Made by a program: the position numbers and the translations under genes. Positions 57,489-64,000 of a stretch of 64,000 bases of DNA are shown here, piece by piece (within the stretch, counting starts at the first letter, position 1; every line of letters begins with the position of its first letter). Under the pieces are notes generated by a model. It searched no databases. It saw nothing but the letters and a program-made list of their open reading frames with translations, and was not told the origin of the DNA. The DNA lies in contig CP167917.1 of the NCBI GenBank assembly GCA_041504365.1, positions 558,001 through 622,000 of the forward strand, written 5' to 3'. The DNA comes from Dryocola sp. LX212 (GTDB lineage: Bacteria; Pseudomonadota; Gammaproteobacteria; Enterobacterales; Enterobacteriaceae).

Positions 57489-58721
57489 ATGTCGTCTTTC
57501 GAATACCTGAAGACCGCAATTCGTCAGCAGAGCGTTACGTTGCAGCAGGTGGCGGAAGCCTGTGACATGACTAAGGGCTACCTCAGCCAGCTGCTGAACG
57601 CCAAAATCAAAAGCCCGAGTGCCCAGAAGCTGGAAGCATTACACCGTTTCCTGGGGCTGGAGTTCCCGCGCCGGGAGAAAACGGTCGGCGTGGTGTTCGG
57701 CAAATTCTATCCGCTGCACACCGGGCATATCTACCTGATCCAGCGTGCGGCAAGCCAGGTCGATGAGCTGCATATTATTATGGGCTACGACGAAACCCGC
57801 GATCGCGCCCTGTTTGAAGACAGCGCCATGTCCCAGCAGCCGACCACGGGTGACCGCCTGCGTTGGCTGCTGCAGACATTTAAATACCAGAAAAACATCC
57901 GTATTCATTCATTTAACGAAGAGAGAATGGAGCCGTACCCGCACGGCTGGGACGTCTGGAGCCGCGGCATCAAAGCCTTTATGGAAAGCAACGGCATTAA
58001 CGCCGACCGCATCTATACCTCCGAAGAGAGCGATGCGCCGCAATTCACTGAACACCTCGGTATTGAAACCGTACTTATCGATCCGCAGCGTACTTTCATG
58101 AACATCAGCGGCGGACAGATCCGAGAAAACCCGTTTCGCTACTGGGAGTACATCCCCACAGAAGTTAAGCCGTTCTTTGTGCGTACGGTGGCGGTGTTGG
58201 GCGGCGAGTCGAGCGGCAAGTCGTGGATGGTGAATAAGCTTGCCAACATCTTCAATACCACCAGCGCGTGGGAGTTCGGGCGTGATTACGTCTTCTCTCA
58301 TCTTGGCGGCGATGAGATGGCGCTGCAGTATTCAGACTACGATAAAATTGCCCTCGGCCACGCGCAGTACATTGATTTTGCAATTAAGTACGCCAACAAG
58401 GTCGCCTTTATCGATACGGACTTTGTCACTACTCAGGCATTCTGCAAGAAATATGAAGGGCGTGAACATCCGTTCGTCCAGGCCCTGATCGACGAGTACC
58501 GTTTCGACCTGGTGATCCTGCTGGAAAACAATACGCCGTGGGTGGCGGACGGGTTGCGCAGCCTGGGCAGCGACGCGGACAGGAAATCGTTCCAGAACCT
58601 GCTGGTATCCATGCTGGAAGAGAACAACATCAGCTACGTACACGTCGAAGATTCAGACTATGATTCGCGTTTCTTACGCTGCGTGGATCTGGTGAAAGAG
58701 ATGCTGGGCGGGCAGGGGTAG
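57489..58721 (+). CDS. nadR: NAD regulator/NMN adenylyltransferase/ribosylnicotinamide kinase NadR
   Basis: Encodes 410 residues (E. coli 410). Three parts: a Cro-type helix-turn-helix (about 15-55; VTLQQVAEACDMTKGYLSQL), an NMN adenylyltransferase domain beginning VGVVFGKFYPLHTGHIYLIQ (about 62-81), and a kinase domain with Walker A GGESSGKSWMVNKLA (about 238-252). It represses NAD synthesis genes and salvages nicotinamide riboside. AGGAGCAGGGAGC precedes the ATG. Confidence 0.97.
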   Translation: MSSFEYLKTAIRQQSVTLQQVAEACDMTKGYLSQLLNAKIKSPSAQKLEALHRFLGLEFPRREKTVGVVFGKFYPLHTGHIYLIQRAASQVDELHIIMGYDETRDRALFEDSAMSQQPTTGDRLRWLLQTFKYQKNIRIHSFNEERMEPYPHGWDVWSRGIKAFMESNGINADRIYTSEESDAPQFTEHLGIETVLIDPQRTFMNISGGQIRENPFRYWEYIPTEVKPFFVRTVAVLGGESSGKSWMVNKLANIFNTTSAWEFGRDYVFSHLGGDEMALQYSDYDKIALGHAQYIDFAIKYANKVAFIDTDFVTTQAFCKKYEGREHPFVQALIDEYRFDLVILLENNTPWVADGLRSLGSDADRKSFQNLLVSMLEENNISYVHVEDSDYDSRFLRCVDLVKEMLGGQG

Positions 58722-59306
58722 CTCAGGGGGTGATAATAAAATGGGGCGCGCTTTGCGCCTCATCAGATAGACGGCCCTCTAAACTAGTTGAGAAACGGGG
58801 GAGGCCCATCAAACGCATTAATACAGAGCATAAAAGTTTACCATCTGGTTGGTGTTGTTTTTATATACATTATGTGGCCTTAGAGTATAAGCCTGAGTGC
58901 TATCGCTACAGGGATGGCGCTTGCCGAGAGGCTGACTACCTTGTCTCTGACAACCCCGATTTTTCAATGCCCATTAAAATTTTATTGTTCTTATCCCATG
59001 CGACGCTGGACCATATCGTGCTGAAAGCGGAATCCCCGCTCGAGAAAAATGGATAGAGGTGATGTGAAATTTAACGACCCTGTATCAAAAAAGACGACTT
59101 ACTCACTCACTAACGGTGCATTCTGGTTTTAAATCATAATCTATTTGTGTTATTTATTTTTAATTAACTTTTTGCTTGCCTGAAAGCAGGCTTTGAATCA
59201 TTTATACTTGTATTTATTATTTTCCCTGTAAAACATCGAGTTAGTGAAATCCACGTTTTTCAACATATTGTTCTCAGCGGTGCGCACACAACCTCCTCCT
59301 TTTTAA

Positions 59307-59321
59307 TCTAAAAGATTTAGA
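59307..59321. promoter_or_regulatory. Palindrome TCTAAA-AGA-TTTAGA upstream of the SPFH operon
   Basis: Perfect 6-bp arms with a 3-nt centre in an AT-rich stretch, 126 nt before the proposed start. Possible operator. Confidence 0.35.
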
Positions 59322-59386
59322 ATTAATAAAATAACAAATAAATATTATCCAAATGTGTACATCGCATAGCTTAATGCATGGTTGGT

Positions 59387-59398
59387 ATGTTATAACAT
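59387..59398. promoter_or_regulatory. Palindrome ATGTTATAACAT upstream of the SPFH operon
   Basis: A 12-nt perfect palindrome 49 nt before the proposed start codon. It contains a -10-like TATAAC, so it may be promoter, operator or both. Confidence 0.4.
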
Positions 59399-59446
59399 TT
59401 AGCGGTGTGTGCCCAATCACCTGTTTTGCAGGTTTTTTATTCTGTC

Positions 59447-61348
59447 ATGTCGCTGGAGCTAATGGTGCCCGACTTAAAAAGTGAAAACTCTGCTCTGGAA
59501 TCCCGTTTACGATCGCGTTTACTGTGGTGCAGAGCTATTGTGTGTGTGTTGCTGGGGGGGGCGGGTATTGCCTGGTTTACCCTCGAGCTGACGGAGAGCC
59601 AAAATATATGGGGAAATTATGGGCGTCCAATACTCGCCTCATTACTTCTGACATGTATCGTCATTGAAAACATATTGTGGCAGTTTACGTCAGAAAAATG
59701 CATTGCAAACAGCAGTGAGACGAATACTCGCGAAGACAAAGAAAGAAAATTTCTACGCTGGAAATTCCTGCTTTCTGCCAGAACGGTAAGCTGGTTAACG
59801 CATCTCACTCAGCTCGGGTTAACCGCATTAACTACACTACTGGCTATCAAAGTGGTAGCAGGGAATTTTTCTGCATCCACTTCCTTTATAGCGCCAGAAA
59901 ATGGGCACATTCTGGCCGTATCTTTATTATTGGCACTCTGTTTCATATTGCTGGTGTGTGAGCGCATGCTCAGTTTTCGCCGAATCCGTCAATGGTCAGA
60001 ACAGATGGCTGCCGTCGGGCTTCTCCGGGCATTACTGAGCATCTGTCTTCTGGTCATGCTGGCGCTGTTCGTCTCCATGTTTTCCGCAACGTTGGCATAC
60101 TGGGTGATGGTTATCGCTGACGGTATTGTCCTGCTCATTGCCGCTGAGTTTCTTCTACGCACGATAGCTGCAGCCTGTGTAATGCCGACCAACAACCGAA
60201 AGCCAGTTTTTGTGACGCAAAGTTTTATTGCTGAACAATATCGCTGGCCGCTTCATCCTCTATTGATGCTGCGAAAAAAAATCATGCAACATTTCGGAGT
60301 GGATGTCGGCCAAATTCAAGCTTTCAGGTTGATGGGCAAGATCCTATTGCCCGTTGTTTGCGGGATCGCTATTACAGGCTGGTTAGCCAGCTGTCTGAAT
60401 GAGGTCTCTGCCAACCAGCGAGGTGTATATGAACGTTTCGGCCGTCCTGTTGCTGTCTTATCCTCAGGGTTGCATGTGGGGTTGCCGTGGCCTTTTGGGC
60501 GGGTCATCCCGGTAGATTACGGTGCTGTTCATGAGCTACAGCTGAGTGATAACGCGCCCACACAAGAGGAAGCCGCTTTTAAAATAACCGATCCTATTGA
60601 AGGTCCTGCGCCTCAGGAAAGCTGGCGATTATGGGATAATACCCATACCACGGACCAGGCTCAGGTTATCGCCAGTGCTTTGGGAGATAAGCAGAGTTTC
60701 CAGATCGTGAATATGGATATTCGAATAATCTGGCGTGTGGGTATGAAAGATGCTGACGCCATGAATAGCCTTTACCAGACTGACGATCTTCCCACTACGA
60801 TACAGCGTATCGCCCGACAGGTGTTGACCCAGTATTTTGCGCATCAACAGCTGGATTCTTTGCTCAATGAGCAGCGTGCCACCATGTCCGTTGCACTGAA
60901 TCAAGAAATTCAAAAACGTCTTAATCGGCTCAATTCCGGGGTGGAATTATTGTATACACGGGTTGAATCAATTCACCCTCCGGCGGGAGCAGCCAACGCC
61001 TACCATGGGGTTCAGGCAGCACAAATCGCGGCAAGTGCACAAATAGCCCGTGAAAAGGGATATTCGTTCTCTTTAGCAAATGACGCGCAGCGTAAAGCGA
61101 CAACGGCCATTAATTCAGCTGAAGCATCCGCGAATGAATTGCAGGCTAAGGCTAACAATGCAATGACGCGCTATAGCGCTGAACATAATGCCTGGAAAAT
61201 CAATCCTGATGCCTATCTGAACGAGCGGCGCTACCAGACCTACAGCAGAGCGTTGTCCGGCACGCCGTTACTGATCATTGACAGCCAGCTGACTGCAACG
61301 AACGAGCCGATGCTCGACCTGCGTCAATTTTCTCAACCTTCACGATAG
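59447..61348 (+). CDS. Polytopic membrane protein with C-terminal SPFH (HflK-like) domain
   Basis: Encodes 633 residues from this ATG. Starts at 59405 (GTG) and 59462 (ATG) are also possible; none has an ideal ribosome-binding site. About six hydrophobic segments fill residues 20-250 (for example VSLLLALCFILLVCERML, ICLLVMLALFVSMFSATLAY). A further helix (LLPVVCGIAITGWLASCL, about 305) leads into an SPFH/band 7 domain: VSANQRGVYERFGRPVAVLS, LHVGLPWPFGRVIPVDYG and FQIVNMDIRIIWRVGMKDAD. An Ala/Glu-rich coiled coil follows (AAQIAASAQIAREKGYSFSL). Canonical HflK is about 420 residues with a single membrane helix, so the N-terminal part is an addition. Confidence 0.82.
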   Translation: MSLELMVPDLKSENSALESRLRSRLLWCRAIVCVLLGGAGIAWFTLELTESQNIWGNYGRPILASLLLTCIVIENILWQFTSEKCIANSSETNTREDKERKFLRWKFLLSARTVSWLTHLTQLGLTALTTLLAIKVVAGNFSASTSFIAPENGHILAVSLLLALCFILLVCERMLSFRRIRQWSEQMAAVGLLRALLSICLLVMLALFVSMFSATLAYWVMVIADGIVLLIAAEFLLRTIAAACVMPTNNRKPVFVTQSFIAEQYRWPLHPLLMLRKKIMQHFGVDVGQIQAFRLMGKILLPVVCGIAITGWLASCLNEVSANQRGVYERFGRPVAVLSSGLHVGLPWPFGRVIPVDYGAVHELQLSDNAPTQEEAAFKITDPIEGPAPQESWRLWDNTHTTDQAQVIASALGDKQSFQIVNMDIRIIWRVGMKDADAMNSLYQTDDLPTTIQRIARQVLTQYFAHQQLDSLLNEQRATMSVALNQEIQKRLNRLNSGVELLYTRVESIHPPAGAANAYHGVQAAQIAASAQIAREKGYSFSLANDAQRKATTAINSAEASANELQAKANNAMTRYSAEHNAWKINPDAYLNERRYQTYSRALSGTPLLIIDSQLTATNEPMLDLRQFSQPSR

Positions 61349-61376
61349 CACTGAAAGAATAAGGTCAGCCTGAACA

Positions 61377-62381
61377 ATGAAAATCCGTACTATATCCACC
61401 GCCGCAACCGTCGGAAAAGTTGGATTAACTCCCGAAGTGAGGCGCCCATCGCGCATCGCGCCTGTAAAACGTTGGCTGCGTTATAGCATCGCTGCCTTGC
61501 TGGTGTTACTGGCGTTTCTGACCGCCTGCCTGGTTCAAGTGCATGCCGGTAATGCCACTATCATCACCCGCTTTGGCAGCCCGGCTCGCGTTATATTGTC
61601 TCCAGGCCTGGCATGGCGTTTGCCAGCCCCATTTGAAACGCCGGTCGAAGTCGATTTACGTAGTCGTTCAACATCCAGTGGATTGCAGGATGTCGGTACT
61701 CGCGATGGTCTGCGGGTGATTGTGCAGGCCTGGGCTATCTGGAAAGTCAGCCCAGAACAGCAGCACGTCTTGCGTTTTCTACGGGCTGTTCAAAACCAGC
61801 CGGATGAAGCCGCCCGGCAGATTCGGACATTTATTGGTTCCTCACTGGAAACCACCACCAGTAATTATGCCCTGTCCGAAATCGTCAACACTGACGGTTC
61901 AAAGGTCAAAATTCCTCAGTTGGAACAGCAAATTAAGGCGCAATTGAAAACCCAACTGCTTAACAGCTATGGCATAGAGTTGATTGATGTCGGAATTGAG
62001 CGCCTGACCTTGCCAGCGGTTACGCTGAATGCCACCGTTGACAGAATGCGCGCGGAACGAGAAACCATTGCCACCGAGCGTACTGCCGAAGGCAATCGTC
62101 AGGCAGCAGAAATTCATTCGAAAGCTGACAGGGATGCACGTATAACCGAGGCCAATGCCTCAATTAAAGCAGCAACCATTACTGCACAGGCGCAGCAGGA
62201 CTCCGCAGCTATCTATGCCAAAGCCTACGCGCTTGACCCTGAGCTATACAATTTACTGCGTTCGCTAGATACGCTTAATGATGTCGTTAATAAAAGCACG
62301 CGCATTGTGCTTAGCACCGATGCTGCCCCGTTTAAGGCGCTGGTGCAGAAACCTGACAATGCTGAAAAGGCGAATCCATGA
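61377..62381 (+). CDS. SPFH-domain membrane protein, HflC-like
   Basis: Encodes 334 residues. A basic N-terminus and one membrane helix (SIAALLVLLAFLTACLVQVH, about 37-56) precede the SPFH domain (GNATIITRFGSPARVILSPG, WAIWKVSPEQQ, LIDVGIERLTLP), then a coiled coil rich in Ala, Glu and Arg (about 215-285; TIATERTAEGNRQAAEIHSK). This is the layout of HflC, which pairs with HflK to cage the protease FtsH. The protein is too divergent to be the housekeeping HflC, which normally lies beside hflX. Its stop overlaps the next start (ATGA). Confidence 0.88.
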   Translation: MKIRTISTAATVGKVGLTPEVRRPSRIAPVKRWLRYSIAALLVLLAFLTACLVQVHAGNATIITRFGSPARVILSPGLAWRLPAPFETPVEVDLRSRSTSSGLQDVGTRDGLRVIVQAWAIWKVSPEQQHVLRFLRAVQNQPDEAARQIRTFIGSSLETTTSNYALSEIVNTDGSKVKIPQLEQQIKAQLKTQLLNSYGIELIDVGIERLTLPAVTLNATVDRMRAERETIATERTAEGNRQAAEIHSKADRDARITEANASIKAATITAQAQQDSAAIYAKAYALDPELYNLLRSLDTLNDVVNKSTRIVLSTDAAPFKALVQKPDNAEKANP

Positions 62382-63457
62382 GAAAACAGCCCTTAGCGAC
62401 ATCCCCTTGGGGGCAGGCATACCGGATTGCATTTTTTAGTCTCTACGGTGCGACGATCCTGGCGGCTCTGGTGTGGGTATTTTCCAGTTTTCATCAAATA
62501 ACTCCGGATACCCAGGCGGTGGTTTTTCGGTTCGGCAAGCCGATAAAAGTTGAAAACTCGGGAATGCTATTCGCATGGCCAAAACCCGTGGATAGGGTCG
62601 AAATAATCCCTGGCCCTGCGCGTATATTGCAACACGACGTATCTCCCTTGAAGCGACAAGAGCAGCTCAAGCAGCTTACCGGCGATCAGTACACCAGTGA
62701 TGCCGGCGCCGGTGCAGGCTATTTGTTGACGGGAGATTCAGGCGTTGTCCAATTAAATATGCAGATTTTCTACCGAATCAATTCACCGCTACGGTATGTG
62801 CTTCAGCAATCTCATATTGATGCGATGATTGACCGGCTGGCGCTACGAGCCGCCACGCTGGTAAGCGCTGGACGCGATCTGGATACTATTTTGGTCGCTC
62901 GACCGGAAACGCTGCGCAACGACAGCCAGGCGGCCCAGGAGCGCTCACGGCTGCGCAGCGATTTGAAACAGATGATTGCGGGCGATATCGAGAAGCTGAA
63001 AGGGGGTGATAACGATCCGGGCATTACGATTGAACGTGTCGATATCGCCTCCTCGCTACCTGATAATGCCGTTGATGCCTTTAACGCTGTACTGACTGCA
63101 AGCCAGCGCGCGGAACAGAATATTGCCCAGGCGCAAAATGATGCCACTCTGAGTATGCAGAAAGCACAGCAGCAGGCCGATCGGGTCATTCAGCAAGCTA
63201 AAGCCAGCAGCAGTGAAATGCATGCCCGAGCCGAAGTGGCGACCCAGACGATCGTCAAGTTGGCACAGGCCAGAGCGACAGGTACCGATGCCGGTATGCT
63301 TTCGAGGATCTGGCGAGAAAAGATCGCGGCGGTACTGTCCCATGCCGGACAGGTTATTACCGTTACGCCAGACGATAAAAGTAAGCTTATTTTACCTGGT
63401 CCAACCCAACAGGTTGATCAACCAGCTTCAGGACAATGGTTTGGGGGGATCCCATGA
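62378..63457 (+). CDS. SPFH-domain membrane protein, HflK-like
   Basis: Encodes 359 residues: one membrane helix (AFFSLYGATILAALVWVFSS, about 18-37), an SPFH domain (ITPDTQAVVFRFGKPIKVEN, GDSGVVQLNMQIFYRINSPL, about 42-155), a linker, a coiled coil (about 245-300; NIAQAQNDATLSMQKAQQQA) and a C-terminal Pro/Gln-rich tail like that of HflK. It overlaps both neighbours by four bases (ATGA), so the second SPFH gene, this gene and the ATPase gene are translated as a unit. Confidence 0.88.
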   Translation: MRKQPLATSPWGQAYRIAFFSLYGATILAALVWVFSSFHQITPDTQAVVFRFGKPIKVENSGMLFAWPKPVDRVEIIPGPARILQHDVSPLKRQEQLKQLTGDQYTSDAGAGAGYLLTGDSGVVQLNMQIFYRINSPLRYVLQQSHIDAMIDRLALRAATLVSAGRDLDTILVARPETLRNDSQAAQERSRLRSDLKQMIAGDIEKLKGGDNDPGITIERVDIASSLPDNAVDAFNAVLTASQRAEQNIAQAQNDATLSMQKAQQQADRVIQQAKASSSEMHARAEVATQTIVKLAQARATGTDAGMLSRIWREKIAAVLSHAGQVITVTPDDKSKLILPGPTQQVDQPASGQWFGGIP

Positions 63458-64000
63458 GTCATCAATGTAGTCACGGACATATTCATCCTAACTTCAGTCA
63501 GGCTCTTCTTACGCCGGAAGAGCGGCGTAAAATGACCTTGCAACTTACGCTGGCAATGACCACTATTGGCCTGATATTACTAAGTTTATTATGGCGTTCA
63601 CTTGCCCCACAGCAGCCTGCTATCAGCGATCTGCTGGCGGGGGTTGCGTGGCTAATTGTCGCAGTTCCCGTCTTCCGTGCAGGTTGGCATAGTCTGCGCC
63701 ACCCGGATCTACATGGCGTAACGGATTTATTAATAGTACTGGCTATGCTTGGCGCGTGGGCTCTGGGGGACTTAATTACTGCCGCACTCTTACCTGTACT
63801 AATGATTTTTGGTCATATTCTTGAAGAACGCAGCGTGATGGGGACCCGGCAGGCGATTGCCGGCCTGACAAAACTTACACGCAGCAAGGCGCGCCGGGTA
63901 CGCGCTGATGGGGGGCTGGAAGAGGTAGACAGCAGCGTTGTAGGGCCGGGTGATATTGTTGAAATTCGCGCCGGGGATAATGTTCCGGCTGACGGTAAAA
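63454..64000 (+). CDS. P1B-type cation-transporting ATPase (N-terminal part; runs out of window)
   Basis: The first 182 codons are present. The N-terminus is His-rich (MSHQCSHGHIHPNF) and lacks the usual CxxC metal-binding domain. Membrane segments follow (LTLAMTTIGLILLSLLW, LLAGVAWLIVAVPVF, LLIVLAMLGAWALG) with PVLMIFGHILEERSVMGTRQ, the LEERA-like motif of heavy-metal ATPases. VGPGDIVEIRAGDNVPADGK begins the actuator domain. The phosphorylation motif DKTGT, the CPx/SPC helix and the metal specificity lie outside the window. The ATG overlaps the stop of the SPFH gene. Confidence 0.9.
   Translation, partial: MSHQCSHGHIHPNFSQALLTPEERRKMTLQLTLAMTTIGLILLSLLWRSLAPQQPAISDLLAGVAWLIVAVPVFRAGWHSLRHPDLHGVTDLLIVLAMLGAWALGDLITAALLPVLMIFGHILEERSVMGTRQAIAGLTKLTRSKARRVRADGGLEEVDSSVVGPGDIVEIRAGDNVPADGK

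Follow-up and report, generated by a model that had tools for sequence, protein, structure and literature searches.

The 64,000-nucleotide stretch of the Dryocola sp. LX212 genome analysed here (the window; contig CP167917.1, positions 558,001 to 622,000) carries near its right end a single operon of four genes on one strand. Three of these encode SPFH proteins and the fourth encodes a heavy-metal P1B-type ATPase (the pump). The operon runs from 59462 to 65367, so that the pump gene ends beyond the window; its end and the right flank were read on a fetched locus (L002, where position equals window position minus 54000). The features are listed below, with model quality given as the predicted local distance difference test (pLDDT) and transmembrane helices numbered as TM1 onwards.

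58760..64000, right end at ~65428 past the window, no strand assigned: segment inserted between nadR and ettA, from flank alignment and GC content
59382..59398, no strand assigned: predicted Zur box TTGGTATGTTATAACAT, ~65–80 nucleotides 5' of the SPFH1 start
59462..61348, + strand: SPFH1, HflK-like, 628 amino acids; Band_7 at 67.3 bits, N-terminal model at pLDDT 84.1, histidine census
61377..62381, + strand: SPFH2, HflC-like, 334 amino acids; Band_7 at 112.3 bits, best solved relative HflC, groups with the genome's own HflC (98/94)
62378..63457, + strand: SPFH3, HflK-like, 359 amino acids; Band_7 at 57 bits, best solved relative HflK
63454..64000, on to 65367 past the window, + strand: HmtA-type P1B ATPase, 637 amino acids; N-terminus MSHQCSHGHIHP, with DKTGT, CPC, WT in TM7 and HNLST in TM8

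The last three genes are joined by ATGA overlaps (62378–62381 and 63454–63457), and SPFH1 and SPFH2 are spaced by 28 nucleotides. Both the overlaps and the content of the operon, three HflK/HflC-like genes and a P1B ATPase gene on one strand, had been described in an earlier note on this DNA, and the Band_7 and heavy-metal family models bear this out. The same note began SPFH1 at the ATG at 59447, which has no GGAG in front of it. The ATG at 59462 is most likely the start, as it is preceded by GGAG and the relatives begin at about the same point. The operon is flanked directly upstream by nadR and directly downstream, on the opposite strand, by ettA (gene names from the first reading of the sequence and by eye).

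All three SPFH proteins exceed the gathering score of PF01145 (Band_7; 23.6 bits), and all three fall short of the HflK and HflC equivalog cut-offs (69.8 bits for SPFH1 and 82.1 for SPFH3 against 159.4 for hflK; 109.3 for SPFH2 against 134.4 for hflC). The best solved sequences are HflK, HflC and HflK, respectively. In a tree with eleven representatives of each, SPFH1, SPFH2 and SPFH3 each form one clade spanning Enterobacteriaceae, Pseudomonas, Rhizobium and Burkholderia, and SPFH2 groups with the genome's own HflC (98/94); this tree, like that of the pumps, carries long branches. The genome as a whole contains six Band_7 matches, namely the three operon genes, an adjacent canonical hflK/hflC pair located elsewhere (406.3 and 473.7 bits, above the HflK/HflC cut-offs), and a gene of 314 codons that we take to encode QmcA from its position near copA. 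The canonical pair rules out the possibility that the operon holds the only hflK/hflC genes of this genome, and the operon is, as first proposed, a second and divergent set of SPFH genes linked to a metal pump.

The nearest solved relatives belong to the HflK/HflC cage around FtsH in E. coli (7wi3, 7vhp), which shares the SPFH domain. The operon differs in having three genes below the family cut-offs, a six-helix domain in SPFH1, a link to a pump, and no FtsH gene. This kinship allows an alternative in which the trio modulates FtsH during zinc starvation, adapting proteolysis by this zinc protease, while the pump is simply co-regulated; modulation of FtsH has been proposed for the SPFH proteins of Pseudomonas aeruginosa (PMC9431628). 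Such a role seems improbable, as the three proteins miss the HflK/HflC cut-offs in a genome that also has the canonical pair, the operon includes no FtsH gene, and SPFH1 is never found without the pump in the sets compared below.

Residues 1–238 of SPFH1 (59462–60175) are predicted to form an extra six-helix membrane domain (model pLDDT 84.1, predicted template modelling score 0.79; the full-length model has a pLDDT of only 65.0), in which E167, R168 and E229 are invariant. This domain is followed by a seventh helix and then the SPFH domain, an arrangement that would make the SPFH domain periplasmic if the N-terminus lies inside. Four histidines in the SPFH part, H357, H395, H505 and H515, are conserved in 116, 119, 119 and 119 of 119 aligned rows, and the genome's own HflK, HflC and QmcA-like protein have other letters or gaps at these positions. 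The four may constitute a periplasmic metal site.

The window's own N-terminal domain has no Pfam match at E 0.5, and 30 Pfam families weakly match between one and four of 47 SPFH1 N-terminal rows (best E 0.0035). A CDF zinc transporter was considered for this domain and is not supported. The best CDF fold matches are insignificant (E 0.13 for ZnT3 in one search and 0.41 for ZnT8 in another), and no match of any kind falls under 0.001 in the search that gave ZnT8. CDF zinc transporters carry an Asp/His metal site in TM2 and TM5; in TM2 and TM5 of the SPFH1 domain no Asp or His is kept in 80% of rows.

The pump scores 516.5 bits against TIGR01525, the heavy-metal subfamily model (cut-off 346.25), and also exceeds the cut-off of E1-E2_ATPase. 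Reading to the right of 64000 for the DKTGT and CPx motifs, as the earlier note had suggested, yields DKTGT and CPC, which together with the subfamily model place the protein among the P1B-type ATPases. It shares CPC, DKTGT and a near full-length alignment with the ZntA-type Zn/Cd ATPase (4umv), and lies far below the ZntA equivalogs (297.9 against 1240 bits for NF033775; 317.9 against 1005 for NF008262). It differs from ZntA at the positions of the TM7 Lys and TM8 Asp, where the pump has Trp-Thr and HN..T; the genome's own ZntA keeps both Lys and Asp. These motifs were counted in 113 of 119 distinct frames, six mis-read frames without DKTGT being left out. CPC is present in 113 of 113 (as CPCV in L188), and Trp-Thr with HN..T in 112, the remaining pump being cut by a contig end. 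The replaced ligands fit an altered metal site and are silent on the direction of transport. In the pump tree, 26 operon pumps form one clade (100/100), apart from the genome's own ZntA and CopA and seven other P1B pumps; those of Pseudomonas operons are 63–67% identical to the pump in the window.

The best family models are those of exporter families (TIGR01512 at 466 bits), which, together with the His-rich N-termini, favours an alternative in which the pump is an ordinary exporter. Under zinc shortage it would remove copper or cobalt, or load periplasmic proteins inside an SPFH enclosure, with the tail serving as a cytoplasmic metal donor. The replacement of the ZntA exporter ligands speaks against this, and further evidence is given below.

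A histidine-rich tail, defined as at least three histidines before the first helix of the pump or of SPFH2, was scored in 101 loci (130, less 19 without an anchor and 10 duplicates). It occurs on SPFH2 only in 49, on both proteins in 43, on the pump only in nine, and on neither in none; the 43 is an upper figure, since some pump counts include residues before the true start. All nine pump-only loci belong to the close group of the window, within one clade with the Kluyvera-Kosakonia-Erwinia group, so the pump-only tail probably reflects a single event. Placement of the tail on either protein is consistent with a complex in which two N-termini share one site, with the related sequences not being independent of one another.

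SPFH1 was found in 25 of 392 Enterobacteriaceae genomes, representing 10 of 154 genera, with the Dryocola genome included. The four genes occur in the same order and on the same strand in 23 of the 24 other loci, and the contig of the 24th ends inside SPFH2. One of the 23 (L059, from genome G024) has an in-frame stop in SPFH2, with the other three genes open. Flanking genes are common only within lineages, and the four genes are the sole part common to all Enterobacteriaceae loci compared. A scan of named genomes gave 420 relatives. The best 80 of these, which comprise Enterobacteriaceae and Erwinia, many Pseudomonas and one Rhizobium, were analysed. All four genes are found in 79 (in one of which a contig end truncates the pump), and the 80th lies on the same short contig as the 24th Enterobacteriaceae locus. 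This repeated order indicates an operon that is more than a chance arrangement.

In the Pseudomonadaceae, the SPFH1 profile matches 28 of 198 genomes, and the pump profile at E 1e-200 matches 121 of 398, once in each. Within the 198 genomes searched for SPFH1 (handles up to G982) the pump marks the identical 28, and the four genes are present in all 20 of the 28 regions that were fetched. It follows that, in the sets compared, the pump never occurs without SPFH1, nor SPFH1 without the pump; the strict cut-offs omit distant relatives, and the presence of the two was compared in the 198 genomes only. The genome searches proposed earlier thus found the genes staying together rather than rarely adjacent, and near-absolute linkage in all sets rules out a loose neighbourhood of SPFH genes and pump.

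Among 72,556 plasmid records, 15 have SPFH1 matches, ten at 36–61% identity and five at 22–24%, four of the latter being annotated as hflK. Five of the ten were fetched, and each carries all four genes. Those of Klebsiella aerogenes and Burkholderia ubonensis are typed as conjugative, and those of Rhizobium sp., Rhizobium tumorigenes and Paraburkholderia sprentiae as non-mobilizable. On the P. sprentiae plasmid (L073:73-7667) the operon is found near genes for a GTP-binding protein, a zinc ABC transporter set and the copper chaperone PCu(A)C. The operon is patchy in its distribution, since an even draw across the class found SPFH1 in only one of 369 genomes, that of Dryocola itself; pump matches in three other genomes of this draw (35–37% identity) are other P1B pumps. 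Megablast against E. coli genomes and plasmids returned no match, in a search that may omit near records.

In all five same-genus relatives examined by flank alignment (G001–G005) nadR and ettA adjoin, while here they are separated by ~6.7 kb (58760 to ~65428). The stretch before the operon has a GC content of 38.3%, against 54.1% for the window. On the evidence of these neighbours the operon is horizontally acquired, as had been suspected from its position after nadR where ettA is expected. One of the five relatives (G002) also carries a copy of the operon, located on a different contig. The sole candidate for a terminal repeat of the insert is a 10-bp inverted match (58790 / 65414); a search for inverted repeats of at least 14 nucleotides found none near the ends. 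By eye, the insert seems to be flanked at either end by the sequence of a hairpin between nadR and ettA (58721–58800 and 65360–65470, the latter L002:11360-11470).

A de novo search of 16 Enterobacteriaceae upstream regions returned the palindrome aTGTTATAntATAACAt with a log-likelihood of 85.2, against 24.9–32.3 for five shuffled sets; three loci (L044, L045 and L070) have poor sites only. Applied to 13 loci, most of them from Pseudomonas, the same kind of search gave a palindrome that covers this site with a shift. By its letters, aTGTTATAntATAACAt is the gamma-proteobacterial Zur box, printed as GAAATGTTATANTATAACATTTC (PMC2706843). A matrix was built from 11 of the Enterobacteriaceae sites, excluding that of the window. 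With it the window site at 59382 reaches 18.1, the highest value in 94 kb of the genome's own sequence, and the runner-up (14.1) belongs to the same operon, 61 bp upstream of the first site. The background consists of 800 stretches outside upstream regions, with a 99th percentile of 11.9 and a highest stretch of 25.1, above every upstream site. It replaced an earlier background whose stretches could overlap the sites (99th percentile 19.7, exceeded by 9 of 80 loci). Of the 80 named loci, 76 lie above the 99th percentile, a count that is partly circular for the Enterobacteriaceae; 60 of 61 Pseudomonas loci do so with this Enterobacteriaceae matrix.

In the whole genome, TGTTATANTATAACA occurs at 8 places with at most two mismatches, the operon site having 2 mismatches in its 15-base core. 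Four of the others lie at zinT, at the znu locus on its znuA/znuB side, at a metal ABC transporter and at the gene for type B L31; the ATPase of the ABC transporter is nearest to AztA and under its cut-off (200.3 against 220). The remaining three are taken to be chance; long frames contain two of them, and the third precedes a cysS-like gene by ~100 bp (by eye). Two results tell against regulation by Zur. The reversed control pattern is as frequent (13 places against 8), so the argument rests on where the sites are located rather than on their number, and four of the 80 named loci score below the 99th percentile (L077, L078 and L080, near the clade of the window, and L120). The operon is very probably a zinc-starvation operon.

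In content and order the window operon matches the hmtA-type locus of P. aeruginosa (PA2439–PA2435), of which it appears to be the counterpart; this equation is drawn from gene content and order, genus and regulation. Both have the order HflK-like, HflC-like, third SPFH gene and P1B ATPase. In a znuA mutant, PA2434, PA2435 (HmtA) and PA2437–PA2439 (HflC/HflK family) were induced 5.6- to 14.4-fold, and a weak Zur site was predicted at the PA2434–PA2439 locus (PMC4542158). Zinc-dependent binding of Zur to the PA2439 promoter has been reported (PMC8531726). Proteins of the locus were raised in zinc-poor medium, significantly so for PA2438 and PA2439 by that paper's own account (PMC11761036), and the three SPFH genes, given by PA14 numbers, were induced by N-acetylcysteine, which was read as zinc starvation (PMC9431628). 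Overexpression of HmtA, reported as a zinc/copper importer, increased sensitivity to zinc and copper and raised the cell content of both (PMC10393844). The earlier note's remark that no characterised function was known for this gene set is therefore superseded by reports of zinc-starvation induction, of Zur binding to the promoter and of HmtA as a zinc/copper importer (PMC4542158, PMC8531726, PMC10393844). The SPFH proteins have also been named PaFlo5–7 (paFlo5-paFlo6-paFlo7), in an operon described as uncommon in other gamma-proteobacteria (PMC13086221). The window operon differs from PA2439–PA2434 in having no gene between SPFH3 and the pump and none after the pump, and in carrying its His-rich tail on the pump rather than on SPFH2. 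Four Pseudomonadaceae loci (L191:8255-8707, L201:8242-8694, also L190 and L200) have a gene of 150 amino acids between SPFH3 and the pump, in the place of PA2436; its product has a signal-peptide-like start and no Pfam family.

On balance we lean towards the four proteins acting together in zinc uptake, as a Zur-controlled zinc-scavenging membrane complex. This reading draws on the linkage, the Zur box, the co-occurring sites at zinc genes, the P. sprentiae neighbours, the P. aeruginosa counterpart, the pump ligands, the histidines and the tails. At low zinc, Zur would leave its box and the operon would be made. The three divergent HflK/HflC-type proteins could then assemble in the inner membrane into a ring or cage of mixed composition that faces the periplasm and holds the pump as cargo. 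Periplasmic histidines of SPFH1 might gather zinc, perhaps copper, beside the pump, which would move zinc into the cytoplasm, where the His-rich tail on the pump (here) or on SPFH2 (in other lineages) could bind it on the inner side. We infer the cage, the contact between SPFH proteins and pump, the direction of transport here, and the roles of histidines and tails.

Several points pull the other way. P1B ATPases of known direction export, a general observation that equally favours the exporter alternative. In P. aeruginosa, hmtA mRNA was not lowered by added zinc (PMC8531726), and hmtA is described as an exception to Zur binding in PMC10393844, unlike in PMC8531726. The importer claim rests on overexpression of HmtA, and reviewers ask for confirmation (PMC10393844). 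Deletion of all three SPFH genes in PA14 had slight effects, with normal growth in LB, ~20% less biofilm and somewhat lower virulence in larvae (PMC13086221). An ordinary exporter is nonetheless unlikely, given the predicted Zur box, its company of zinc-uptake genes (the zinT, znu, metal ABC transporter and L31 sites; the neighbours in P. sprentiae) and the rise in cell zinc and copper on HmtA overexpression (PMC10393844). The biofilm and virulence effects of the deletion would suit a general flotillin-like module for membrane order that is linked to a metal pump by chance (PMC13086221). That explanation is very improbable in view of the near-absolute linkage to one pump family and the predicted control by Zur.

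The zinc-scavenging reading has a stricter form, in which the operon encodes one obligate machine. The pump would sit in a three-component SPFH cage around a periplasmic zinc chamber, and a member of an exporter family would import, with the tail on the pump, the cage or both. This form is rather less likely than not. If true, it would define a new class of multi-subunit P-type transporter and, to our knowledge, the first transport role for an HflK/C-type cage. KdpFABC is a P-type ATPase that imports with partner subunits, namely a channel and small subunits in place of SPFH proteins.

Metal import by a P1B ATPase is unsettled, and the case for it rests on HmtA in the papers cited. The operon, which is found at varied chromosome and plasmid sites in many bacteria, may show how an export-type pump family could serve zinc uptake. 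Assays of the pump on its own may have overlooked the functional unit if HmtA-type pumps are accompanied by three SPFH partners. The existing PA14 SPFH deletion offers a direct way to address the zinc question, because the assays listed for it are LB growth, virulence traits, motility, biofilm, tobramycin and oxidative stress, and a word search of the main text of that paper gives 'Zur' 0, 'ATPase' 0 and 'zinc' 1 (PMC13086221). In the open-licence literature, no paper was found in which SPFH genes and pump are handled as a single functional system. What is new here is that the unit travels as one piece, that the pump ligands are altered, that SPFH1 has four family-specific histidines, and that the tail lies on the pump, SPFH2 or both.

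Alkyl sulfatases are zinc enzymes, and two lineages have a gene for one close to the operon, at L045:2925-4925 (from Pfam) and on the Klebsiella aerogenes plasmid at L070:1263-3239 (from annotation).

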